Made by a program: the position numbers and the translations under genes. 38,001 bases of DNA, taken from the IMG/VR virus record IMGVR_UViG_3300030102_003260, positions 1-38,001 of that record. One strand, 5' to 3'. Positions within the stretch are counted from its first letter, which is position 1. Every line of letters starts with the position of its first letter. This DNA is from a virus. The notes under the pieces are model-generated. The model had not been told where the DNA came from. It did no database searches and saw nothing but the letters and a program-made list of their open reading frames with translations. Positions 4,865-38,001 of the stretch are shown here, piece by piece.

Positions 4865-5218
4865 TTAAAAAGGTATATTATCATTTGGCTCAACGTTTGA
4901 CGGAGCAGCATCTTGCGTTTCATTTGTTCCGTGCATTTTAAGTGAATTAACTTTTACCTTTATAGTGGCGTTAGCATTACCATCTTTTTTAACATAAGCG
5001 TTAATACCAGATAATTCACCAAATATAGTAACTGGTTTACCTTTAGTTAAAAAACTAGATAGACTTTCACCTAGCTTACCCCATAAAGCACAATCATTAT
5101 AAACAACTGTGTCTTTGTTAATATTAGAAGCAACTGTAAAATTTAATACAGATGTTTCTCCAACTTTTTTTAATTCTGGGTCGTTGGCAAGATTACCAGT
5201 AGTGTTGTATGAGTTCAT
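4865..5218 (-). CDS. ssb: Single-stranded DNA-binding protein
   Basis: A 117-residue OB-fold protein. GNLANDPELKKV near the N-terminus, the central NDCALWGKLGE and the GKPVTIFGELSG strand are typical of bacterial-type SSB. The acidic tail ends NDNIPF, equivalent to the DDDIPF tip through which SSB recruits partner proteins. That intact tip suggests it can dock host replication proteins. GGAG stands 6 bases before the ATG. It is grouped with the annealing protein and the RecB-like nuclease, so it probably coats ssDNA during replication and recombination. Confidence 0.88.
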   Translation of the reverse strand: MNSYNTTGNLANDPELKKVGETSVLNFTVASNINKDTVVYNDCALWGKLGESLSSFLTKGKPVTIFGELSGINAYVKKDGNANATIKVKVNSLKMHGTNETQDAAPSNVEPNDNIPF

Positions 5219-5236
5219 AATATTCTCCTTTTGTTG

Positions 5237-5860
5237 TTAAACTCTTTCATTTAATTCAGTTCTTTTACTTGCATAAATTTTTCTTACATAATCTGCATGA
5301 TTTGAATTATTTATCTTTGTTGCATTATTTTTTCCCCAAACCTCTAACTCATCTAAAGTTTTTATATTATCAATAGCAAATCTGTAACCTTCTTTTTCCA
5401 TTTCTTCTAAATGGTCATTTTCATCTGTTAATTTATTACTTTCATCTGTAAGAATTTCTAAATTAGATTTTTTTTCTATTGTTTCATGTGAAACATCATC
5501 AGGTGGTAAATCTTCGCCTTTGTATATAAACAAGCCATAACCAAACATACCTAAACATTTTACAAGACCTCGCTGAAAAGCGGTATTAATTTGAAAAGCA
5601 TTGGGTTGTGGAATAGGTTTGTTTTTATAATCTAGTATAGGAAATTCCTCTGTAAGAGTTCTGCCTTCTATAGTAATAGAAACTGACACAAAACCATCTA
5701 TATCACTTAATTTTTTAGTAAAAGTAACATCTGGATAAGCTCTACTTACATGATCCCAAGCAGTAGCCCATGATATATAATTAAACTGACCTTTTTTTTC
5801 TATATCTTTTTTATTAATTTTTATGGTGTTTAATGTTTCAAACACTGTATTTTTAGTCAT
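5237..5860 (-). CDS. DUF1071 single-strand annealing protein (Sak3-like)
   Basis: About 207 residues. The N-terminal half carries the DUF1071 signature: FNYISWATAWDHVSRAYPD, then PNAFQINTAFQRGLVKCLG and MFGYGLFIYKGEDLP. DUF1071 proteins are regarded as phage single-strand annealing recombinases (the Sak3 group). The C-terminal part is acidic and helical. The ATG at 5860 has GGAG 6 bases upstream and is preferred to the ATG at 5872. The start overlaps the preceding gene by 8 bases. With SSB and the RecB-like nuclease it forms a plausible recombination set for end joining or concatemer formation. Confidence 0.75.
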   Translation of the reverse strand: MTKNTVFETLNTIKINKKDIEKKGQFNYISWATAWDHVSRAYPDVTFTKKLSDIDGFVSVSITIEGRTLTEEFPILDYKNKPIPQPNAFQINTAFQRGLVKCLGMFGYGLFIYKGEDLPPDDVSHETIEKKSNLEILTDESNKLTDENDHLEEMEKEGYRFAIDNIKTLDELEVWGKNNATKINNSNHADYVRKIYASKRTELNERV

Positions 5861-6047
5861 CTTTATCTCCATCTTTTATTTTTGTCATAGTTTTCATGTG
5901 GTTATCTTTGCCTACAGCTTTCCATTTACCGCCCCAAACTTCTTGCATTCTTTTTTCTCTTTCACGCCAATGTTTTTCCCAAGAAAATTCACCATATTTA
6001 TCTAATAATTGTTGAACAACAACGTGAAATTTTTTATTCTTGTCCAT
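5853..6047 (-). CDS. Small charged protein, unknown
   Basis: From the ATG at 6047 (AGGAAACCAG upstream) it is 64 residues, rich in Lys, Glu and Trp, with FSWEKHWREREKRMQEVWGG in the middle. An alternative start at 6149 would add 34 residues but would overlap the next gene by 116 bases. No family recognised. Overlaps at both ends (14 bases upstream, 8 downstream) place it in the replication operon. Confidence 0.55.
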   Translation of the reverse strand: MDKNKKFHVVVQQLLDKYGEFSWEKHWREREKRMQEVWGGKWKAVGKDNHMKTMTKIKDGDKDD

Positions 6048-6228
6048 CTGGTTTCCTGTACCAACTTTTAGTTTCTTGGCAATACCATGAGTTTTTAATC
6101 CTTTTTGGTCTATGACTATATCTTTTGCCTTTAGCGTTTTTTCTGCCATCTATTAATCTTTTTGCCAACTTTATCTCCATTAAATTATAATTTCGTTCCC
6201 ATATTTTTGACTTTACATTAATTGTCAT
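6034..6228 (-). CDS. Small basic protein, unknown
   Basis: 64 residues from an ATG at 6228 that overlaps the upstream stop (TAATG). It is strongly basic, with KLAKRLIDGRKNAKGKRYSH and an aromatic end (NSWYCQETKSWYRKPDGQE). A second candidate start (MEIKLAKRL, with GGAG inside the codons) lies 15 residues in. The frame remains open upstream to 6345, but that part is covered by a better supported gene. Function unknown; it may bind nucleic acid. Confidence 0.5.
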   Translation of the reverse strand: MTINVKSKIWERNYNLMEIKLAKRLIDGRKNAKGKRYSHRPKRIKNSWYCQETKSWYRKPDGQE

Positions 6229-6422
6229 TACACTTCTTCTACCTCTGCTGTCATTGGCATGTGTGTAATTAAATGTTTTGCTTTCATTGGCGGCATATCC
6301 CAGTAATCTTCTTTTGCCATTTCTAATGCTTGTTCTGGTTTCCAAGCTGTAAATTTTTTCTGAATAGTAATAGTTTGTTTTACAGTAACATTATATTTTT
6401 TTGGTTTTACTACTTTAGCCAT
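6228..6422 (-). CDS. Small protein in replication operon, unknown
   Basis: 64 residues. A beta-rich N-terminus (KKYNVTVKQTITIQKKFTA) leads into a helical WKPEQALEMAKEDYW segment, then an acidic end. The layout resembles small domains with an 'A...A...A' helix common in phage accessory proteins. Its ATG overlaps the end of the nuclease gene by 13 bases and its stop overlaps the next start. No family assigned. Confidence 0.6.
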   Translation of the reverse strand: MAKVVKPKKYNVTVKQTITIQKKFTAWKPEQALEMAKEDYWDMPPMKAKHLITHMPMTAEVEEV

Positions 6423-7327
6423 AATTCTTTTGCCTTATCTTCTAGTTCTTTACCTATATTCCAATAGAAATCAGTTTCAAAATCAGGTATATCTAAAACA
6501 TTTATAGGATTGTCTATCATTAGTAATGATTGTCTAATTTTTGCTTTTTTTATCATTGATCTAGAATATATCTCCATATTATCAAATGACATTTCTTGAC
6601 AATTTTCAGGGTGAAAAACTTGAGCTTTGTTTTTATTACCAACAATAATAATAGGATAATATTCTCTGTTCATAGCTTCCCAATATATAGTAATTTGTTC
6701 TAAATATGTTATGCGTGGTAAGACAGGAATAGAGGCAACGGAAAAGCCTCTACTCCCATCTTTTTTTACAGCACCCAATCTTGGTTGAAGCGTTTTGTAC
6801 TCTATTATAGTTTTTGGATTATTAACTAACATATCGGCATATCCAATAATAGGTACAACCAATTCTTTTGGTTGCCATAAAATTTGTTGTTCAAAATTGC
6901 CTTCTAAAAATGTTTTATGACTTGTTTCTTTATAATTATCTCTACGTCTTTCTTTTAATACATCAATAGTAGCGTCTAGCATATTTTGTGCTGTTTTCGG
7001 TGAGTGTTCCTTACAACCTTGTATTTTTAGCTCATCATTTTCATCTACAGGTATATGCTCGTCTATACGATTACCTATTTCATCAAAAATTAAATCTATT
7101 GTTTCTTGGTCATATTCAAATGTATTAGGATTTACATTTTGCAAAGATAAATCTAATGCGTCATGTATTGCATTTCCAGATGTAGCAGCAACACCAAACT
7201 CTATTTTTTTTCTTTCTTCAGCTGTAAGTTTAACATATTTAAACCACCATAAATTTAATGGTATGTTTAGCTGCGAGGCAGAAAAATGTTTTATATCATG
7301 TTGTTCTAATCTATCTTTAAGTTCCAT
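6410..7327 (-). CDS. RecB/Cas4-like PD-(D/E)XK exonuclease
   Basis: 305 residues from the ATG at 7327 (AAAAGGAATAAA upstream). The ATG at 7345 overlaps the promoter -10 element and is rejected. Active-site residues fit the PDDEXK_1 group: GNAIHDAL (His55), VPIIGYADML (Asp165), TIIEYKT (Glu176, Lys178) and the following EQITIYW helix. Such nucleases resect DNA ends to give the single strands used by annealing proteins, and a DUF1071 annealing protein and SSB lie downstream in the same operon. No four-Cys iron-sulphur cluster set is apparent. It is the first gene of the leftward replication operon. Confidence 0.78.
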   Translation of the reverse strand: MELKDRLEQHDIKHFSASQLNIPLNLWWFKYVKLTAEERKKIEFGVAATSGNAIHDALDLSLQNVNPNTFEYDQETIDLIFDEIGNRIDEHIPVDENDELKIQGCKEHSPKTAQNMLDATIDVLKERRRDNYKETSHKTFLEGNFEQQILWQPKELVVPIIGYADMLVNNPKTIIEYKTLQPRLGAVKKDGSRGFSVASIPVLPRITYLEQITIYWEAMNREYYPIIIVGNKNKAQVFHPENCQEMSFDNMEIYSRSMIKKAKIRQSLLMIDNPINVLDIPDFETDFYWNIGKELEDKAKELWLK

Positions 7328-7343
7328 TTTATTCCTTTTCCCC

Positions 7344-7371
7344 ATTATACCGATTTATTCACATAGGTCAA
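7344..7371 (-). promoter_or_regulatory. Sigma70-type promoter of replication operon
   Basis: On the minus strand a TTGACC -35 box (7371-7366), a 16-base spacer and a perfect TATAAT -10 box (7349-7344). The predicted transcript begins about 10 bases before the start codon at 7327, so the leader is very short and holds just the AGGA ribosome-binding site. Confidence 0.75.
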
Positions 7372-7377
7372 TTATAT

Positions 7378-7512
7378 TTATTCATTAAGACATTCTGTAT
7401 CTTCGTAAACAAATTCTGACTCATTAGTTCTTTTACGTCTAGTGCCACAGCTAATAGACAAATCAATAGACATAAAATTTACATTGTTATTGTTAATATA
7501 GTGAAAAGACAT
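7378..7512 (-). CDS. Possible 44-residue ORF, unknown
   Basis: Open frame starting MSFHYINNNNVNFMSIDLS, with a polar, acidic end (ESEFVYEDTECLNE). The first ATG overlaps a TATAAT hexamer (7516-7511), so if it is translated the inner Met at 7473 (31 residues) is more likely. No Shine-Dalgarno site is seen. The gap 7346-7738 otherwise contains regulatory signals only. Confidence 0.3.
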   Translation of the reverse strand: MSFHYINNNNVNFMSIDLSISCGTRRKRTNESEFVYEDTECLNE

Positions 7513-7579
7513 TATACAAATAATACTTACAACATTAAGTAATATGTTCTTCCACTCGTTTTTAATATTAATAAAAACA

Positions 7580-7613
7580 AGTCCTCCCTGTTAATAACAA
7601 GGACTATTTTTTT
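7580..7613. terminator. Bidirectional hairpin terminator candidate
   Basis: AGTCCT (7580-7585) pairs with AGGACT (7600-7605), followed by a run of seven T on the plus strand. On the minus strand the hairpin is followed by TGTTTTTA. Leftward read-through from the 8052-11413 operon could stop here. On the plus strand no gene precedes it, so it may end a short RNA. Confidence 0.55.
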
Positions 7614-7685
7614 GATTTTATTAAATAAAAAAAGCTAGATTTTACGATTTTTTTGTGGTTGCCAAACTATGTCGAAATTTAGCAT

Positions 7686-7714
7686 TTGACATTATTATCT
7701 TTTTGTGATACAAT
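7686..7714 (+). promoter_or_regulatory. Consensus sigma70-type promoter
   Basis: TTGACA (7686-7691), 17-base spacer, TACAAT (7709-7714), then a 24-base stretch to the ATG at 7739. Promoter and leader form a 56-base module repeated on the opposite strand at 11411-11466. Confidence 0.8.
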
Positions 7715-7741
7715 AGGTTTTAAACAATGGAGAAAATTATG
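7686..7741 (+). repeat. Promoter-leader module, copy 1
   Basis: From the -35 box to the start codon this is identical at 52 of 56 positions to the reverse complement of 11411-11466, including GGAGAAAATTATG at the start site. The genes that follow the two copies are unrelated in protein sequence. Confidence 0.85.
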
Positions 7742-8047
7742 CAAGAAAATAAAAAAATTAGACTTACTTTTAATTTAGATAAAGTTTCTAATGGAGAGAT
7801 TAATAAAAAGAAGGGTGATTTAGTAGATGAGAAACTTTTTGAAATATTAAAAGAATTTAATAAAAGTATAGATATAAAATATATACGTTCTACAGATAAA
7901 GAAATTGATTTATTAAATAGAAATAAATCAATTTACAATAGACAGTTAAAATCAAAAATATCTAGATTGATAATAGATTATATGTTTGAAAGGCAAAGGG
8001 CTAAAGGGATTGGAATAGGTGAAATTCCATATGGTTTTAAAGATTAG
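7739..8047 (+). CDS. Charged early protein, unknown
   Basis: 102 residues from the ATG at 7739. This start is chosen because GGAG lies 6 bases upstream and the same GGAGAAAATTATG precedes the gene at 11413; the ATG at 7727 would consume the ribosome-binding site. The protein is rich in Lys, Ile and Asp, with a predicted helical C-terminus (KSKISRLIIDYMFERQRAKG). No signal peptide or membrane span. A strong promoter of its own suggests early expression, perhaps host takeover or regulation. No family recognised. It converges with the leftward gene at 8052. Confidence 0.65.
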   Translation: MQENKKIRLTFNLDKVSNGEINKKKGDLVDEKLFEILKEFNKSIDIKYIRSTDKEIDLLNRNKSIYNRQLKSKISRLIIDYMFERQRAKGIGIGEIPYGFKD

Positions 8048-8051
8048 TGTG

Positions 8052-8303
8052 TTAGCCACCTAATAATGGGTTGCGGCTATTGTCGGTAGCCTTTTCTAGC
8101 TTCGATACCTTTTCTTCAAGTATGGCTATCTTTGTTTCTAGTGGCGAGACATCAACAGATGTTATCTCAACAGCTTCTAAGTTATCTAAACGATTATTTA
8201 TTTCACTTGTAGCTACTGCAAAACTCCAGAAGCCACCACCAACAGCACCAATTACACCAATTACTGCTAAATACTTTTGTAGATTATCCATTAAATTTTT
8301 CAT
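8052..8303 (-). CDS. Small membrane-anchored coiled-coil protein
   Basis: 83 residues. A hydrophobic segment at about 10-31 (YLAVIGVIGAVGGGFWSFAV) is followed by a heptad-like coil (NRLDNLEAVEI, then ETKIAILEEKVSKLEKA). The ATG overlaps the upstream stop (TAATG), with AGGAGA just before it. The layout recalls small phage membrane proteins next to lysis or envelope-associated genes, such as holin accessories or i-spanins, but is not diagnostic. It is the last gene of the leftward secreted-protein operon. Confidence 0.6.
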   Translation of the reverse strand: MKNLMDNLQKYLAVIGVIGAVGGGFWSFAVATSEINNRLDNLEAVEITSVDVSPLETKIAILEEKVSKLEKATDNSRNPLLGG

Positions 8304-10180
8304 TAGTATCTCCTAAATAAATCTAAATTCTGACTGCTCACCATTTTATTCATTGCAATAGATGAGGCTTCTGTCATTGATATATGTGCATTAATATTAT
8401 CACTTAAAACAACATTTGTATATATTTGATAAGGTTCGTAAAAAGCAACGTCTGGAATACTCATTGCAGAATAATTATCCCAACCTTGTTTGTAATTCAT
8501 CAAAGCGATTAAACTAGATTGTCCTTGCACATCATACTCACCACTTTCATTTTGGTTTTCTTCTATTTCTTCTTGCAAACTTTCCATGTTACTTTGGATT
8601 ACACTAGCAACAACTTGGTCTGCCTCTGATAATGTCATAATCTCACTTGTAAAAGATTGTATTTCATTAGTAATACTATCAGTCGTTACAGTTTGAACTT
8701 GTACGATAGCAACTCCCATTGCGTCATTACCAATAGGATTGACTTCAATAGTTTGGATAGACTGCAAAGCGTTTTGTCTTTGTGTTTGCTCGGCAGCGAT
8801 TTGATTGCTTATGCCAGATTGCGAAAAATCACTTGAGCCAGATACAGTGTTGTTTTGTGATTGTGATAAACTATTAGACTGGCTTATTATAGAAGATGTT
8901 AAATTACTTATATAATTATTAGTCGATACAATATTTCTACGAACATTGTTTTGTCTTTCTTCTGGCTCGTTTATTTCTTCTATTTCATCTAATTGTTCTT
9001 CAACAACTTCTTCATACACTTCTTCTAAAACCATTTCTTCAAGTTCTTCTTCTAATTCTTCATATATTTCTTCAGGCATTTCTTCTAGCTCTAAAACTTC
9101 TGCGATTTCAATATAATTATCTTCTGGATATATGTCTGGTAATAAATCTAATGTTGGTAAATCAAGTATATCTAATGGTGTTTCAGTTTCATCACCGATA
9201 ATGTCAATAACATCAACATAATCAGTTTCAATAAAAATATTGTTTTCAATTTCTAATTCTTCTTCTATGTCAAATGATATATAATCTTCATTTATATCAA
9301 TAATATAAATATCTGTTTCTAAGCCTTCACCTGTTTCATAGTTTATTGTGTCAAAGCCTAAATATATATCATCATCAATGTCGTCAAAGGCAGAATACCC
9401 ATGATCCTCTGTATCATTGCCTAATAAATTATCTATAAAATCTAATATATCATCTTCTTCACTATTTGAACCTAAGTCATATACATCACATAAGGCACTA
9501 AAATTAGAATTTGTTAAACATTCTGTGGATAAGTTAGAGTAAGACTCATCAATACCTGTGGATAAAGACCATTCATCTGTTCTATTATAAGTTTTTGTAT
9601 TGTTATCTTCGTATCGTAAATAAGTTACAGCTTCGTCATTACCTTGTAAACCTATGGTAATATCGTGATTTGCAACATTAATTTTTTTATAGCGAAATTC
9701 TATTATGTTTGTACTTTCATATAATATAGCTTCAAAAGAACTTAAATTATTGTTTCTATATTCATTAACATTGTACCAACCTGCAACCCAATATTTTGAG
9801 CCAGAGCTACCAAATGTCTGAACGTAGGGCGAACCATTATTATTATTTTTATCAATAAAATCAGACCATAACGGAAATATAGTGTTGTCGTACCCAGAAG
9901 CAGGTATAACTTCTGATAAATAATTTCTTCTTCCAGTAATATTAAAATTTTGATTAAATGTTACAAAACCATTCATTGCAACTCTAACTTGATTATATGT
10001 GTTGCCATAATATGTAAAATCAAAACCTAAATTTTGGGAAGATGAAACAACATCATCACCAAGATTAAGAGCTGTACCAGTTTGTGATATATCAATAATA
10101 GGATCTGTGCCAACAGTAAAAGTAGGGTCAGAAGCATTAACTGAATAACTAAATAGTAATAAAAATATTAGTCTAAACAC
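8303..10180 (-). CDS. Exported NIDO-like protein with acidic coiled domain
   Basis: 625 residues. It has a signal peptide at 1-16 (FRLIFLLLFSYSVNA). Residues about 17-215 form a beta-rich domain with LGFDFTYYGNTYNQVRVAMN, IFPLWSDF, YWVAGWYNV and FEAILYESTNIIEFRY, resembling nidogen-like (NIDO) extracellular domains. Residues about 240-410 are extremely acidic (Asp/Glu/Ile/Leu), and the rest is Ser/Gln/Asn-rich and helical. It should leave the cytoplasm. It could alter the infected cell surface, exclude superinfection or decorate virions. The TTATCCACA codon pairs at 9524-9565 are unusual here. Family match is by eye. Confidence 0.6.
   Translation of the reverse strand: MFRLIFLLLFSYSVNASDPTFTVGTDPIIDISQTGTALNLGDDVVSSSQNLGFDFTYYGNTYNQVRVAMNGFVTFNQNFNITGRRNYLSEVIPASGYDNTIFPLWSDFIDKNNNNGSPYVQTFGSSGSKYWVAGWYNVNEYRNNNLSSFEAILYESTNIIEFRYKKINVANHDITIGLQGNDEAVTYLRYEDNNTKTYNRTDEWSLSTGIDESYSNLSTECLTNSNFSALCDVYDLGSNSEEDDILDFIDNLLGNDTEDHGYSAFDDIDDDIYLGFDTINYETGEGLETDIYIIDINEDYISFDIEEELEIENNIFIETDYVDVIDIIGDETETPLDILDLPTLDLLPDIYPEDNYIEIAEVLELEEMPEEIYEELEEELEEMVLEEVYEEVVEEQLDEIEEINEPEERQNNVRRNIVSTNNYISNLTSSIISQSNSLSQSQNNTVSGSSDFSQSGISNQIAAEQTQRQNALQSIQTIEVNPIGNDAMGVAIVQVQTVTTDSITNEIQSFTSEIMTLSEADQVVASVIQSNMESLQEEIEENQNESGEYDVQGQSSLIALMNYKQGWDNYSAMSIPDVAFYEPYQIYTNVVLSDNINAHISMTEASSIAMNKMVSSQNLDLFRRY
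9524..9565 (-). other. Pair of perfect DnaA boxes
   Basis: On the minus strand, consensus TTATCCACA occurs at 9565-9557 and again at 9532-9524, start to start 33 bases (about three helical turns). Both lie in the exported NIDO-like gene and encode Leu-Ser-Thr using TCC. The phage encodes its own DnaA-type DNA-binding domain, so these are candidate targets or part of an origin. Confidence 0.6.
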
Positions 10181-11085
10181 AACTTATGACTTTTATATTT
10201 ACGACAAAAATCTTTTTTCTTATATGCCTTTACATCTAAATTTTTGTATTCTTTTTTTATATCTTCCCAATCAGGTCTGTCCTGTGGATTTTGCTCCCAA
10301 CCAATACGAGCTTCTTCACCAATTAAACCTTTATATGGGCAGTAGCTGCCAGCTTGCATCATCGCCAAGAAAACTCTTTTATCCTGACAGAGTAATGATA
10401 CTGACGCAACTTGTAAACCATTGGCAGCTAATTCACGACTTAACAATACTCTTTGACAATTTTCATCAACAACACTTGAACCTTTTGCTACACCAAATAA
10501 ATTTGTTTGAATACTTGCTGAACTACCTGAAACGCACACTAACTGGCTATATGAATTTATTGATGGTGCAATAGCTGAACTAACCTGTCCTTTAATACGT
10601 TGTGTAACTACCTGACGAGAATTGCTGTTACTGCTGCTTTGGTTAATATTAGTATTCTGATTAACGGAAGAATTAATATTTTCGTTTTTTGTTTCAACAC
10701 TAGATACAGAATTGCTAACGCTATTATTATTATTAGTATTGACCGAGGTATTTGTTTGATTGACTATAGAATTAACAGACTGGTCTATGTTTGATGTTAC
10801 AGTGCTGACTGACGTGTTGTTATTAGTATTAGTGCTAACAGACGTGTTATTATTTGTATTTGTTGATGTTGATGTATTCGTTGACGTTTGATTTATGGTC
10901 GTGTTGTTCGTGTTAGTGTTGTTTGAAACGTTTGTATTTTGATTATAATTAGTGTTTGTTGAGTTTACTGTTGAATTTGTGGTTGTGTTATTTGTTATGT
11001 TCTGATCTTCAGCAAAGGCTAATCCTATGACACCAAATATTGCCAAGCCCAATATTGTATATGCTCTCAATGTTTCTTTTAACAT
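10168..11085 (-). CDS. Exported Asn/Thr/Ser-rich low-complexity protein
   Basis: 305 residues from the ATG at 11085, which gives a proper signal peptide (LRAYTILGLAIFGVIGLAFA, cleaved before EDQN). The ATG at 11154 would put a GC-rich hairpin inside the coding start and is rejected. Roughly residues 30-170 are almost only Asn, Thr, Ser, Gln and Val, with the unit TNTNNNTSVS repeated. The C-terminal 120 residues are compact with several Cys (LVCVSGS, ENCQRV, SLLCQD, SYCPYK, DFCRKY, KLCLD), suggesting disulphides outside the cytoplasm. Its stop overlaps the next start by 13 bases. Function unknown; a cell-surface or adhesin role is plausible. Confidence 0.65.
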   Translation of the reverse strand: MLKETLRAYTILGLAIFGVIGLAFAEDQNITNNTTTNSTVNSTNTNYNQNTNVSNNTNTNNTTINQTSTNTSTSTNTNNNTSVSTNTNNNTSVSTVTSNIDQSVNSIVNQTNTSVNTNNNNSVSNSVSSVETKNENINSSVNQNTNINQSSSNSNSRQVVTQRIKGQVSSAIAPSINSYSQLVCVSGSSASIQTNLFGVAKGSSVVDENCQRVLLSRELAANGLQVASVSLLCQDKRVFLAMMQAGSYCPYKGLIGEEARIGWEQNPQDRPDWEDIKKEYKNLDVKAYKKKDFCRKYKSHKLCLD

Positions 11086-11128
11086 GACGTGATTTTCTAT
11101 GATTTTAAAACCTAAAGCAAGATGTTTA

Positions 11129-11152
11129 GAGGGGGATAAAGTTATCCCCCTC
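11129..11152. other. GC-rich perfect hairpin
   Basis: GAGGGGGATAA (11129-11139) pairs with TTATCCCCCTC (11142-11152). It lies between the stop of the leftward gene at 11162 and the start at 11085. No T-run follows on either strand, so it may be an RNA stabiliser, processing site or weak terminator separating expression of the two genes. Confidence 0.55.
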
Positions 11153-11161
11153 ATAATAAAA

Positions 11162-11413
11162 TTATGCAGGTCTTATTAAAGTATCAGTATTTAATTTATG
11201 ATTTTTATTAAAAATTCTTTTTCCATCTAAAGAAGTTTTTAAACCATATAAATTTTTATTTTTAGTAATTTTTGTCAATTCAAATAATGCCTTACCCTTA
11301 CCATGTTGATTAGCACCATGCTCAATGATAAATTTATCACCAATATAAACATCAAACTCAACACCTTTTAATTCTGTACTTGCAAAAGTAATTTTTTCTA
11401 TTCTATTTTTCAT
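11162..11413 (-). CDS. Early small basic protein, unknown
   Basis: 83 residues, beta-rich (ITFASTELKGVEFDVYIGDK, then LYGLKTSLDGKRIF), basic, with no signal peptide or membrane span. It is first behind the second promoter-leader module, with GGAG 6 bases before the ATG. No family recognised. Sharing a near-identical control region with the gene at 7739 suggests both are made at the same stage of infection. Confidence 0.65.
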   Translation of the reverse strand: MKNRIEKITFASTELKGVEFDVYIGDKFIIEHGANQHGKGKALFELTKITKNKNLYGLKTSLDGKRIFNKNHKLNTDTLIRPA

Positions 11414-11466
11414 AATTTTCTCCGTTGTTAAAAATCTATTGTATCAAAAAAAGATAATAATGTCAA
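11411..11466 (-). repeat. Promoter-leader module, copy 2
   Basis: Reverse complement is 52/56 identical to 7686-7741. The four changes are one in the spacer and three in the leader; both hexamers and GGAGAAAATTATG are unchanged. Confidence 0.85.
11438..11466 (-). promoter_or_regulatory. Leftward consensus promoter
   Basis: On the minus strand TTGACA (11466-11461), 17-base spacer, TACAAT (11443-11438). It reads toward the operon 11413-8052 and stands back to back with a rightward promoter whose -35 begins 14 bases away. Confidence 0.8.
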
Positions 11467-11479
11467 GTTGTGATATTGT

Positions 11480-11508
11480 TTGACATTTTTTTAGAACAGA
11501 ATTATCTT
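11480..11508 (+). promoter_or_regulatory. Rightward consensus promoter
   Basis: TTGACA (11480-11485), 17-base spacer, TATCTT (11503-11508), 26 bases before the ATG at 11535, with GAGGAAAAA as ribosome-binding site. Together with the leftward promoter it forms a 13-base-spaced inverted TGTCAA/TTGACA pair. Confidence 0.7.
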
Positions 11509-11534
11509 AAAAAGAAATTATTAATGAGGAAAAA

Positions 11535-11732
11535 ATGAAAAAAACACAAACAAAAAAGGTTAGCAAGAAAAGAACCAGAGCAAAGGATAATAAAGGTAGA
11601 TTTGTTCCTGACGATAAATCTACTCCATATAATGAAGCCTATGGTGAAAAACCTGCACCAAAAAATAATATATTTGGCATTATTCTTGCCGTTTTATTAA
11701 TTGCAGCAGTTTTATTTTTAGGGGTTAATTAA
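11535..11732 (+). CDS. Small basic protein with C-terminal membrane span
   Basis: 65 residues. Residues 1-45 are highly basic and polar (KKTQTKKVSKKRTRAKDNKG), and residues about 46-64 are a hydrophobic anchor (FGIILAVLLIAAVLFLGV). It is tail-anchored, with the basic part presumably cytoplasmic. It is first behind the rightward promoter and its stop overlaps the next ATG (TAATG). Function unknown; it could tether nucleic acid or modify the host membrane. Confidence 0.6.
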   Translation: MKKTQTKKVSKKRTRAKDNKGRFVPDDKSTPYNEAYGEKPAPKNNIFGIILAVLLIAAVLFLGVN

Positions 11733-11929
11733 TGAATATTATTTCTGAGAAATTAGAAAAAAAAGAAATGACACCAAGGACGCTAGCTGAAGCAATAGGT
11801 GAAAAACATATCAATAATATTTACAGAATTATTGCAGGTAAACAAATACCCAGACAAGATAAAATGGAAAAAATTTGTAAATTATTAGACTTAGAGCCAA
11901 ATGATTTTTACCCATTTATGAGGCAATAG
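11732..11929 (+). CDS. Cro/CI-type HTH regulator
   Basis: 65 residues covering essentially one XRE-family domain. The stretch TPRTLAEAIGEKHINNIYRI at 14-33 is the helix-turn-helix, followed by IAGKQIPRQDKMEKICKLLD and a hydrophobic end (FYPFM). It is small enough to be a Cro-like repressor without a sensor domain. It lies second in the transcript from the rightward promoter, so it may control that divergent promoter pair by feedback. No integrase or partner repressor was found, so this looks like early/late timing rather than lysogeny. Confidence 0.75.
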   Translation: MNIISEKLEKKEMTPRTLAEAIGEKHINNIYRIIAGKQIPRQDKMEKICKLLDLEPNDFYPFMRQ

Positions 11930-11930
11930 T

Positions 11931-12380
11931 ATGAATGGACGTATCTACGAAGATAAAGAAGATTTAGAAAACGAAGAACGTCTTATACAAATAGCTAACT
12001 TAAAATGGAATTGTGCAAGTAAAAAAGAGTCTATAGCCAATGTTATAGACTATTCTATGTGGCGTAATGGTATTTTACTAGGTTGGGTAGAAATTAGAGT
12101 AAGAAATGCAAAATCTACTGATTACCCAACTATCATTTGCAGCTTGAACAAAGCAGAAACTTGCATAAGACGAAGAAAAAATTTTGGTAAACCTGTTATT
12201 TTTCTTGTTAAATGGAAAGGTGATAACAAAATAGGTTGGATTGATTTTAAAGATGTTGACTACAAAGATGAAAAAACATTATGGTATCAACCTATAAATT
12301 ATCGAAATGATAAAAGGGATATTGGAACAGTAGTACAGATACCAATTAATAAATTTCACTGGATCGAAGATGCTTTATAA
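11931..12380 (+). CDS. PD-(D/E)XK-like protein with altered motif
   Basis: 149 residues. ENEERLIQIANLKW at 14-27, VIDYSMWRNGILLGWVEIRVR at 38-58 and a following helix are laid out like a PD-(D/E)XK nuclease core: Asp40, Glu54, then Arg56 where Lys is usual. CSLNKAETCIRRRKNFGKPV fits the helix after the core, and FLVKWKG the next strand. It may be a nuclease with a changed or inactive site, or an anti-restriction or DNA-binding relative. Its start follows the HTH gene stop by 1 base, in the same early operon. Confidence 0.5.
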   Translation: MNGRIYEDKEDLENEERLIQIANLKWNCASKKESIANVIDYSMWRNGILLGWVEIRVRNAKSTDYPTIICSLNKAETCIRRRKNFGKPVIFLVKWKGDNKIGWIDFKDVDYKDEKTLWYQPINYRNDKRDIGTVVQIPINKFHWIEDAL

Positions 12381-12766
12381 TGGATAAAAACAAAGAATTA
12401 CCATTTTATAATGTACCAACTGCTGAGATGGTGAACATACAGCATGACGTTGGTGTTGTTATAGCAAAAGATCTTTATATATTATTTTTAGAGCTATGGC
12501 GTAGAAATTGCGAACCTATTGAAGTTAATATTGCTAAGAAAAAACTAAAAATTAATGTAAAAAATTTACAAAAAACATCAGAAAATTACAATTTTTATGT
12601 AAGTTTTGAACAAAAAAACGATAAATTTTACATAAAAAGTGAATTTATTTTACAATTTTATGAAAAAGGACTGCGAAAAAAACAAACAAGAGAAACATGG
12701 AACGAAAAGAAGAAAATGCAAAGAAAACAATCATTTATGAACAAATATGACGATAAATTTAAATAG
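12380..12766 (+). CDS. Early operon protein, unknown
   Basis: 128 residues, with the start overlapping the previous stop by one base. An N-terminal helical region (TAEMVNIQHDVGVVIAKDLY) leads into LFLELWRRNCEPIEV, then a basic beta-strand section and a very basic, helical C-terminus (KKKQT-type, NEKKKMQRKQ). The charge suggests binding to DNA or RNA. No family recognised. It ends the rightward early operon at a terminator. Confidence 0.6.
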   Translation: MDKNKELPFYNVPTAEMVNIQHDVGVVIAKDLYILFLELWRRNCEPIEVNIAKKKLKINVKNLQKTSENYNFYVSFEQKNDKFYIKSEFILQFYEKGLRKKQTRETWNEKKKMQRKQSFMNKYDDKFK

Positions 12767-12803
12767 CCAGTTAATAATCATTCTTAACTATGGCGATTTT
12801 TTT
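12766..12803 (+). terminator. Rho-independent terminator
   Basis: GCCAGTTAA (12766-12774) pairs with TTAACT and GGC (12784-12794) with a two-base bulge, then seven T at 12797-12803. It closes the operon that starts at 11535. Downstream, 12820-12860 is a repetitive TTTAATTTAA-type AT-rich tract before the next gene. Confidence 0.75.
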
Positions 12804-35400: not shown

Positions 35401-37206
35401 GGTAGCTCAATATATGATGGTGACACTACAATTATTGATACTAGCACTGATGATACTGTAAAACTTTTAAGTGCATTGCAATTAACAAATCAATTTGTTA
35501 TTGGTGAATGGTCTGTTACTTGGACAGGTAGTCAATATAATGGTGAATATATTGGTGGTGCATTAACTGCAAATCAAGATTATAGAGCAAATGCAACAAG
35601 TGGACAAAGTAGATTTACAAGAATTGCTTATGACCATACTAATGATTTAGCTCTTATTATGAAAGTAAATTATTATAGAAAATTTACTTTAATAAAGGCT
35701 TCACCTAATAGTGGTAATGCTAATTGGACATTTAATTACGCTTCAGATGGTTATGGAAGTGAATTAACTAACAGTGGAACTGTTGATCAAGGCTACGAAT
35801 ATAGACAATACATAACCGCAGATGGTCATGGACAAGTATTCTTTTCTATTGCAAATTATACTGCAGGTCAAAATACAAGGTTTCAAGTTGTTGCCTATGA
35901 TTTAACAGAAAGTAGTTATAGTACAAGTGCATGGGATAGATTTATTTATACAACCAGTAGTTCAGGAAATTTACAGGGTGCTATACCTATTCATTATGAC
36001 CATTTAAATCAAAAGTTATTTGTTATAGGTTTTGATGGAAGTGGTAACCCTCATGACAATCCAAATAATAATTTAAGAGTTTATACTTTTTCAGGAATAA
36101 CAGATACTTTAGAAAGTAATCTTACACAAAGTAGTTATGATGGTAATAGTGGTTCAAGATATTCAAGATATGGTTTTTGGGGAATGGTTGATACTGTTAG
36201 TTTATCTGCTATTACAGATACTAAAGCAGGAAGATGGGTACAAATAGCACAAAGCAGTGCTACTGGTTGGACAGGTAGTAGTGTAAAAATTAAATCAGGA
36301 ACTTTACCACATTCAGTTACTACAAACACTACAAATAAAGCATTAGCGTTTGGTTTTGCACAAAAAGCTGGTAGTGCAGGAGATACAATATCTGTCTTAC
36401 CATTTGATAGTGAAAGTATAGAACAAAATCAATCATCTTTAACGCATGGCACAAAATATTATGTAACTTCTACAGGAGCATTATCAACAGCTACAACACC
36501 TGATAGCAGTATTGCAAATGACCCTGATAACCCTCTTGTTGGTGAAGCAATTAATACAACTAATCTAAGATTGCCAACAAAATCTATTACTGGTGGTGGT
36601 GGAGGTGGTGACCCCAAAGTATTCTGTGGTGCTGTAGATTTTAGAAGAGATAGTGGTGTTGGCACAAGTGTAATTCTTTCAAAACCTGATAGCTTAACCG
36701 CAAGTGAAATTAGAGCCTATGAAATACATTTTTATGGTGTGGGTGTAAGTAATGATACATCTTATAATATAAGATTTAAACCTTATAAAAATGGTTCAAG
36801 TGTAATGTCAGGTAATTTTAAAGGTGTTGCTACAGGTAATTACAATGGTAGTAGTTATACTTCAGCTAACCACTCTTGGAGTTCTTATTTATCTTTTAGA
36901 ATGTATGGTGCAAATTATCCTTATAGAGCAAATAGTGCAAGTATTCAAAATTATTCTGCAGGAGGTTCTCATAGTGGTAAACTTACTGGAAAAGTTGTTT
37001 ATGAAAATAATATTAAAAACGGAGCTTTTAGTTATGTAGCAAATGTAAGAACAGGGGGAAGTGATTATTATATGAATAATGAAATGGGTTCTTTTGGTTC
37101 AACTGATAATGCAAACACAACTGATTACGCAGAACAATTTTATTTTTATACTGGTACTGGAAGTTTTGAAGAAGGCGTAATAGTTTTATACGCAATTAAG
37201 AAATAA
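32470..37206 (+). CDS. Tail fibre, full length
   Basis: 1578 residues. The N-terminal attachment region begins FDANAANNTDLNSISIAEGT. A six-residue GNVTGN/GNLTGN repeat lies at about 157-197. The DAA.K.YVD signature of fibre repeats occurs near 237, 318 and 360. An Ala/Ser/Thr-rich coil spans about 372-415. LPAVDGSQLTGISGG lies at about 765-779, after which a roughly 600-residue propeller-like beta domain (for example DDGRFVFVWARGWSTYDLRI) precedes the tip (1381-1578), which is homologous to the tip at 1-656. It binds the host receptor. Its length and domain swap suggest strong host-range selection. Confidence 0.85.
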   Translation: MAKTKISQFDANAANNTDLNSISIAEGTAPSNINNAIRELMSQLADLNLGNEVLSTLKIDNLHLDGNTIITLDTNGDLNLTPNGTGSVVVAKVDINGGAIDGTSIGGSSASTGAFTTLSASSTANLGSTVTISGGNIDGVIGANTPAAITGTVITANTNFAGDITGNVTGNVTGNLTGNVTGNVTGNLTGDVTGNITASSGSSTFNNVTINGTLDMDSTTSQTITGLATPSNSTDAATKGYVDTEVSSLVDSAPSTLNTLNELAAALGDDASFSTTVTNSIAAKLPLAGGTMTGDINLDSNSLTNLAAPSNNNDAARKAYVDTADALKLNLSGGTLSGNIAMGDNKITGLAAPTADGDAARKKYVDDIAGSGTAAATSASQAATSATNAANSATASANSATAAASSATSAAASLDSFDDRYLGAKSSAPSTDNDGDALVTGALYWNTSSNDLYVWNGSAWEQGAFSTGGVLSNVVEDTTPQLGGDLDAQGKDIEDVGIVSADGIAGIYGSTSSPVTYTVTVASKTAAHPYNGDGSSSAYFLNGIESPALQLQGVDGTTANTEYFYKFDQSHSSNSGHPLRFYKDAAKAEAYTTGVTTNGTAGSSGAYTTIAVDDATPNVLYYECSNHAYMGNYVTTPATSVQGLDAELTAIAGLTSAADKGIQFTGSGTAATYDLTAAGKALLDDADAAAQRTTLGLGTAATTASTDYATAAQGTKADNAAAKASNLSDLASASTARTNLGLGTAATLTAGTSANNAVQLDSNAKLPAVDGSQLTGISGGTDQIDMVVGSGSDAISIGNVVTRESNGETKKVKKEATTTNYSVSAADYVSSTISGTLAGSPSPHTYGTQSAMCGSDDGRFVFVWARGWSTYDLRIKTFIHTGSGNWTIGADFNPSIGQAGSSKPTLRCRFVKNCNASAGGTFFVFFHSTETNGYNQPWKYFMLTVDSSGGCTKYTTAGGTYSGMYDVARIAAGTSTGGSSIYDGDTTIIDTSTDDTVKLLSALQLTNQFVIGEWSVTWTGSQYNGEYIGGALTANQDYRANATSGQSRFTRIAYDHTNDLALIMKVNYYRKFTLIKASPNSGNANWTFNYASDGYGSELTNSGTVDQGYEYRQYITADGHGQVFFSIANYTAGQNTRFQVVAYDLTESSYSTSAWDRFIYTTSSSGNLQGAIPIHYDHLNQKLFVIGFDGSGNPHDNPNNNLRVYTFSGITDTLESNLTQSSYDGNSGSRYSRYGFWGMVDTVSLSAITDTKAGRWVQIAQSSATGWTGSSVKIKSGTLPHSVTTNTTNKALAFGFAQKAGSAGDTISVLPFDSESIEQNQSSLTHGTKYYVTSTGALSTATTPDSSIANDPDNPLVGEAINTTNLRLPTKSITGGGGGGDPKVFCGAVDFRRDSGVGTSVILSKPDSLTASEIRAYEIHFYGVGVSNDTSYNIRFKPYKNGSSVMSGNFKGVATGNYNGSSYTSANHSWSSYLSFRMYGANYPYRANSASIQNYSAGGSHSGKLTGKVVYENNIKNGAFSYVANVRTGGSDYYMNNEMGSFGSTDNANTTDYAEQFYFYTGTGSFEEGVIVLYAIKK

Positions 37207-37215
37207 GGAGAAAAC

Positions 37216-37494
37216 ATGGCAAAAGAAAATGTATATGATGCAAGTCTTGGAAAAGTTGTTGAAATTGAAGTAGATAATAGAGAAGACCCAAATGCAGAAG
37301 AAAATTTATTGCAATCTAAAAAACAAGAAAGAACTGCACTTTTGCAAGAAAGTGATTGGACAACATCTACAGACAGCCCTTTAACTGATGAACAAAAAGC
37401 TAAAGCAGTTACATATAGACAAGCATTAAGGGATTTACCTGCACAAAATGGTTTTCCAAATATTGCTTTTCCAACTAAACCAGATTTTTTATAG
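37216..37494 (+). CDS. Tail assembly chaperone-like protein (right copy)
   Basis: 92 residues, the counterpart of the protein at 666-944. ERTALLQESDWTTSTDSPLT, then TYRQALRDLPAQNGFPN and FPTKPDFL, fit the tail assembly chaperone family. AAGGAGAAAAC precedes the ATG. It shares start and end motifs with its left copy but differs throughout the middle, matching a separate fibre tip. Confidence 0.72.
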   Translation: MAKENVYDASLGKVVEIEVDNREDPNAEENLLQSKKQERTALLQESDWTTSTDSPLTDEQKAKAVTYRQALRDLPAQNGFPNIAFPTKPDFL

Positions 37495-37902: not shown

Positions 37903-38001
37903 ATGCCTATTAAACCAACAACCGCAACTGTAAACCAAAAAATTGATGACCATGTTGACGCTTGTTCTGATAGGTATGAGGCAATAGATAGACGATTATA
38001 T
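37903..38001 (+). CDS. Small membrane protein, XhlA-like, 5' part
   Basis: The first 33 codons of the gene found complete at 954-1121. It has one extra codon (Ile at position 3) and one silent change before becoming identical. TAAGGAGTAATC precedes the ATG. The gene is cut by the window end; joining it to base 1050 would complete it in frame. Confidence 0.75.
   Translation, partial: MPIKPTTATVNQKIDDHVDACSDRYEAIDRRLY
37924..38001. repeat. 78-bp exact repeat, right copy
   Basis: Identical to 972-1049 and ends at the last base of the window. It marks the likely closing point of a circular molecule. Confidence 0.95.

Follow-up and report, generated by a model that had tools for sequence, protein, structure and literature searches.

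Positions 7686-7741 of the window, as we term the whole 38,001 nucleotide viral stretch analysed here (IMG/VR record IMGVR_UViG_3300030102_003260), raise the question of why a phage should carry one promoter and leader before two different genes on opposite strands. As a preliminary description had reported, these 56 bases agree with the reverse complement of 11411-11466 at 52 positions, ungapped. The runner-up 56-base match, on either strand of the window, is 32/56, and the 40-base core of the module was found at just these two places in the window; 100 shuffles yielded no instance. Identity between the copies falls steeply upstream of TTGACA and shortly past the ATG. Each copy includes a near-consensus sigma-70 promoter with TG one base 5' of the -10 box, followed by an unstructured leader of approximately 18 bases from the predicted start, with GGAG six bases 5' of the ATG (Table 1). 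Transcription is predicted to start near 7721 in copy 1 and near 11431 in copy 2. In the window, at least 11/12 hexamer matches combined with TGn before the -10 box were found only at the two module sites; shuffles contained a mean of 0.22 sites with 11/12 hexamers and an extended -10, and two sites were reached in 2/100. The match and the sigma-70 elements at both sites support the view of a putative promoter-leader module that is used twice, once on each strand.

The proposed extent, from -35 box to start codon, holds for both window copies, but copy 1 and the copies in the related contigs L093, L165 and L169 begin approximately 7 bases earlier, with TTAGCAY. As copy 1 has this stretch in common with those contigs, the unit that moved is likely to have been approximately 63 bases long, and the TTAGCAY part appears to have been lost from window copy 2 by drift. 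That both are near-consensus sigma-70 sites might be taken to mean that two strong host-type promoters arose without common descent. However, the consensus cannot explain the likeness, as the spacer (16/17 bases) and the leader agree too, as does the upstream TTAGCAY of copy 1 and relatives, and the pattern is absent from the shuffles. Convergence is therefore scarcely credible. An RNA element was also considered and was ruled out, as the module has no Rfam match and the leaders are unstructured. In copy 1, translation is likely to start at 7739, because the alternative in-frame ATG, at 7727, lies partly over the Shine-Dalgarno sequence and is replaced by ACG in copy 2.

Table 1. Coordinates of the two modules, the inserts that carry them and associated features (positions are in the window unless a contig is named)
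Feature	Position	Strand	Details
Insert 1	7680..8047	+	module and 102-aa gene
Module copy 1	7680..7741	+	TAGCAT, then TTGACA 7686-7691, 17-base spacer, TACAAT 7709-7714
Copy 1 leader parts		+	extended -10 TG; Shine-Dalgarno GGAG 7729-7732; ATG 7739-7741
ORFan gene	7739..8047	+	102 aa from 7739 ATG (106 aa from 7727)
Hairpin GAGGGGGATAACTTTATCCCCCTC	11129..11152	-	just 3' of 83-aa gene; no U-run
Insert 2	11150..11470 (about)	-	module and 83-aa gene
83-aa gene	11162..11413	-	relatives only in this phage group
Module copy 2	11411..11466	-	TTGACA 11466-11461, TACAAT 11443-11438, GGAG 11423-11420, ATG 11413-11411
Outward promoter-like site	11480..11508	+	TTGACA-17-TATCTT; back to back with module copy 2
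273-aa gene	L089 1665-2555		no family match; own promoter-like site, hairpin and T-run
Mom-family gene	L089 5858-6676		Pfam E 2.6e-42; PHROG E 5.4e-33 (L089 copy)

The genes behind the modules had been called unrelated, and a BLASTP comparison of the 102-aa and 83-aa proteins bore this out (E = 2.6 over 11 residues). Duplication of a gene together with its promoter, which would place one protein family behind both modules, is thereby out. With a matching module at both sites and unrelated genes behind them, identical initiation signals are likely. Codon use in both ORFs is that of the phage's other genes, and both are coding-like. Family, PDB and fold searches returned no confident function for either product. 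For the 102-aa protein there was no family match and no confident fold, and the model (pLDDT 47) was too poor for use; its gene was found only in the window and in one near-identical contig, L003. The 83-aa protein has a predicted all-beta fold (pLDDT 79) that is weakly SH3/Tudor/Sm-like, and a 44-45% identical relative is encoded elsewhere in L038/L039, just 5' of the terminase gene. In L038 (9411-9605), that relative lies behind a different promoter-like region.

When window positions 6001-12800 were aligned with related contigs, two clean gaps were seen. At site 1, 7679 joins 8048 directly, between conserved flanks, in 11 related contigs (L004, L086, L087, L088, L092, L093, L094, L095, L096, L097 and L147), while L089 and L091 have a Mom-type DNA-modification gene there instead, on the other strand. 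At site 2, 10 related contigs lack the stretch from about 11150 to 11470 (L085, which is the same contig as L004, L087, L088, L090, L091, L096, L097, L098, L009 and L056). L004/L085 is without insert 2 though its flanks are up to 94-97% identical to the window. L093, L094 and L165 have insert 2. In L089, site 2 is occupied by the 273-aa gene, which lies behind TTGACATTAGTTTCATTAAAAGATAAAAT (TTGACA-17-TAAAAT) and an AATGGAG leader and is followed by a hairpin and T-run, a full promoter-gene-terminator layout; the end of yet another ORF is found at this site in L092. As empty sites exist at both places, each module appears to form the 5' end of an insert of approximately 320-370 bases with a single gene, and as alternative genes are found at both, the two places appear to be hot spots.

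The start of insert 1 is present in L169, a contig that ends 10 bases past the ATG, and those bases match the start of the 102-aa gene. The backbone of L169 is approximately 98.6-99% identical to those of L093 and L094, whose site 1 is empty, and insert 1 is distributed so patchily that the backbone tree requires it to have been gained or lost at least three times. Insert 2 of the window is 88% identical to that of L093, while the flanks are 72-73% identical. Compared with L165, insert 2 is 92% identical, the upstream flank 77% and the short downstream flank 93.5%, so that by this measure the insert clearly exceeds only one flank in identity. No terminator was seen within insert 1. The hairpin at 11129-11152 is predicted at -15 to -18.6 kcal/mol in genomes with an insert and at -6 to -12 kcal/mol in empty ones, which suggests that its left arm was brought in by the inserts.

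Some further observations concern the surroundings of the two sites. The outward promoter-like site at 11480-11508 is seen both in relatives with the insert and in relatives without it. The motif ATGTCRAA lies near both insertion points, at 7669 (+) and 11486 (-), the site 2 copy being part of the conserved outward -35 box; as it occurs eight times in the window, once inside a module, a role as target site is only suggested and the placement may be chance. L003 is 98-100% identical to the window right of approximately 7200 and 82-94% identical left of it (6001-7250 compared), a step that points to recombination with a breakpoint slightly to the left of site 1.

The preliminary description had proposed that the shared module implies co-regulation, probably at the earliest stage of infection. 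In that reading, selection keeps the leaders alike and a shared factor reads the whole module, switching both genes on at the start of infection. Near-consensus promoters fit it, and near-identical strong promoters do precede many early anti-defence genes in archaeal viruses, as one account describes them (PMC11065993). A Cro/C1-type helix-turn-helix protein that could regulate either promoter is encoded nearby (11732-11929), in an operon divergent from insert 2. However, the module precedes no other gene. When 2.9 million viral contigs were scanned with two relaxed patterns, derived from the promoter and the leader respectively, both scans returned the same five contigs: L003, which has both copies; L093/L170, L094/L171 and L165/L172, in which the module precedes the 83-aa gene at site 2; and L169, which has it at site 1. 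The search of relatives for the module before other genes, which the co-regulation proposal had called for, found none in the window, in 25 related records scanned whole or in the viral contigs, and a narrower pattern found none in a collection of bacterial and archaeal genomes. As these scans placed the module at these two sites only, it is tied to the two inserts and not to a regulon, and a wider regulon is not supported.

The amount of divergence between module copies also counts against selection on a shared leader. Window copy 2 and the L093 module differ at 7/56 bases, and the synonymous codons of the 83-aa gene differ at 7/71. As the module diverges about as much as the synonymous codons, common descent suffices and no additional constraint on the leader is needed. 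The hexamers themselves differ among module copies, and no sign of an operator was found: the leader is unstructured and there is no inverted repeat with constant spacing. The leader features said to be shared beyond the hexamers amount to a lack of structure and the presence of a Shine-Dalgarno sequence, the remaining similarity being accounted for without constraint. On this evidence an early regulon is unlikely.

Within a lineage, the copies at the two sites are as close to each other as copies at one site are across lineages, or closer. Window copies 1 and 2 differ at 4 positions, and the L169 site 1 and L093 site 2 copies at 2, against 4 and 7 differences across lineages at one site. Both window copies have ACAATAG, and all other copies have ACACTAA. 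These shared substitutions, seen in very few sequences, hint at copying or conversion between the sites within lineages. The promoter-leader might also serve as a recombination adaptor, with the phage's annealing protein loading new ORFs behind it, or converting one copy to the other, via the short homology with which each cassette starts; we regard this addition as doubtful.

As the copies form inverted repeats that point towards each other, and the phage encodes a Sak-like annealing protein, recombination between them could in principle flip the 3.7 kb between them and swap the gene at each site. However, the near-identical L003 is in the same orientation, and neither gene was found at the other site in any contig. 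Furthermore, since the promoter travels with its gene, a flip would leave expression unswitched. An invertible segment is therefore very improbable.

The window encodes a terminase, portal, scaffold, major head protein and podovirus-like internal proteins. Its best known relatives, at 40-58% protein identity, are Phage C72C1, Methylophilales phage Venkman and Pelagibacter phage HTVC106P, while its close relatives are metagenome contigs that, judged by the phages they resemble, would in large part be marine. The group is uncultured and probably marine. Genes for the Sak-like annealing protein, an SSB and an exonuclease-like protein lie at 4865-7345; a tyrosine integrase was not found in the window and no tRNA lies beside the insertion sites. 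No phage RNA polymerase was named when the main genes were scanned against PHROG, and so the presence of host-type promoters may not in itself define a temporal class of genes. In a Pfam search for a T7-type RNA polymerase no control matched, and that result carries no information. The last 91 bases (37911-38001) repeat 959-1049 at 99%, and the stretches just ahead of the two repeats, 202-892 and 36764-37442, are 72-78% alike. These end repeats could be either duplicated tail-fibre-type genes or overlapping contig ends with variation.

We conclude, with a probability of roughly three in four, that each module provides a one-gene moron cassette with its promoter and translation start, that the two cassettes were inserted into a compact arrangement of operons at two hot spots, and that their modules share a common ancestry. 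The simplest proposal is that one promoter-leader of approximately 63 bases was set before two unrelated ORFs by recombination at short homology, possibly aided by the phage's own Sak-like annealing protein. Host RNA polymerase with the main sigma factor would then start near the two predicted positions. As the host polymerase would read both promoters, the inserted genes would be strongly expressed independently of the neighbouring operons, and, to judge from the strength of these host-type promoters, probably from early in infection.

If this is correct, accessory genes, a Mom-type DNA-modification gene included, come and go at two insertion hot spots in this phage group. Any gene in these two slots is a good candidate for a role in host interaction or counter-defence, and the shared promoter offers a concrete means of finding more such genes. 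The case also shows that repetition of a promoter in a phage does not necessarily imply a regulon.

Several known systems resemble this arrangement in part. PeSL cassettes of T4-type phages were reportedly described by Arbiol in 2010 and Comeau in 2014. In a PeSL, an early promoter is joined to a stem-loop as a repeated intergenic unit, with many copies in the plastic regions of one genome. These promoter-early/stem-loop cassettes are presented as mobile and are thought to mediate gene shuffling (PMC4503421). The module is like them in that a host-type promoter recurs ahead of small genes that are unrelated and lie in plastic regions. Unlike them, the 63-base unit has no stem-loop, the leader being unstructured in both copies, and there are two copies only, carried by a podovirus-like phage of 38 kb from a different lineage. 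In SIRV2 and other archaeal viruses, anti-defence genes are described as having conserved TATA/BRE early promoters in many copies, with transcriptome support (PMC11065993). The likeness lies in near-identical strong promoters before unrelated small accessory genes; in contrast, the promoters here are of sigma-70 type, number two and are known from sequence alone.

The closest likeness is to the morons of tailed phages, as characterised in PMC2147016: single accessory genes that lie between genes adjacent in relatives and in many cases bring a promoter and terminator of their own. Both inserts lie between genes that are neighbours in relatives with empty sites, and both appear to have their own promoter, with consensus sigma-70 elements and an extended -10. 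Signs of horizontal transfer are the greater identity of insert 2 than of its flanks and the patchiness of insert 1. As to a terminator, insert 2 is followed by a hairpin that lacks a U-run, none was seen within insert 1, and the L089 site 2 insert has a hairpin with a T-run. The two inserts differ from typical morons in that they appear to have one promoter-leader by descent and in that neither has a clear terminator. This is a known way of viral accessory-gene uptake, to which the shared promoter adds a modest variation, and not a new regulatory system.
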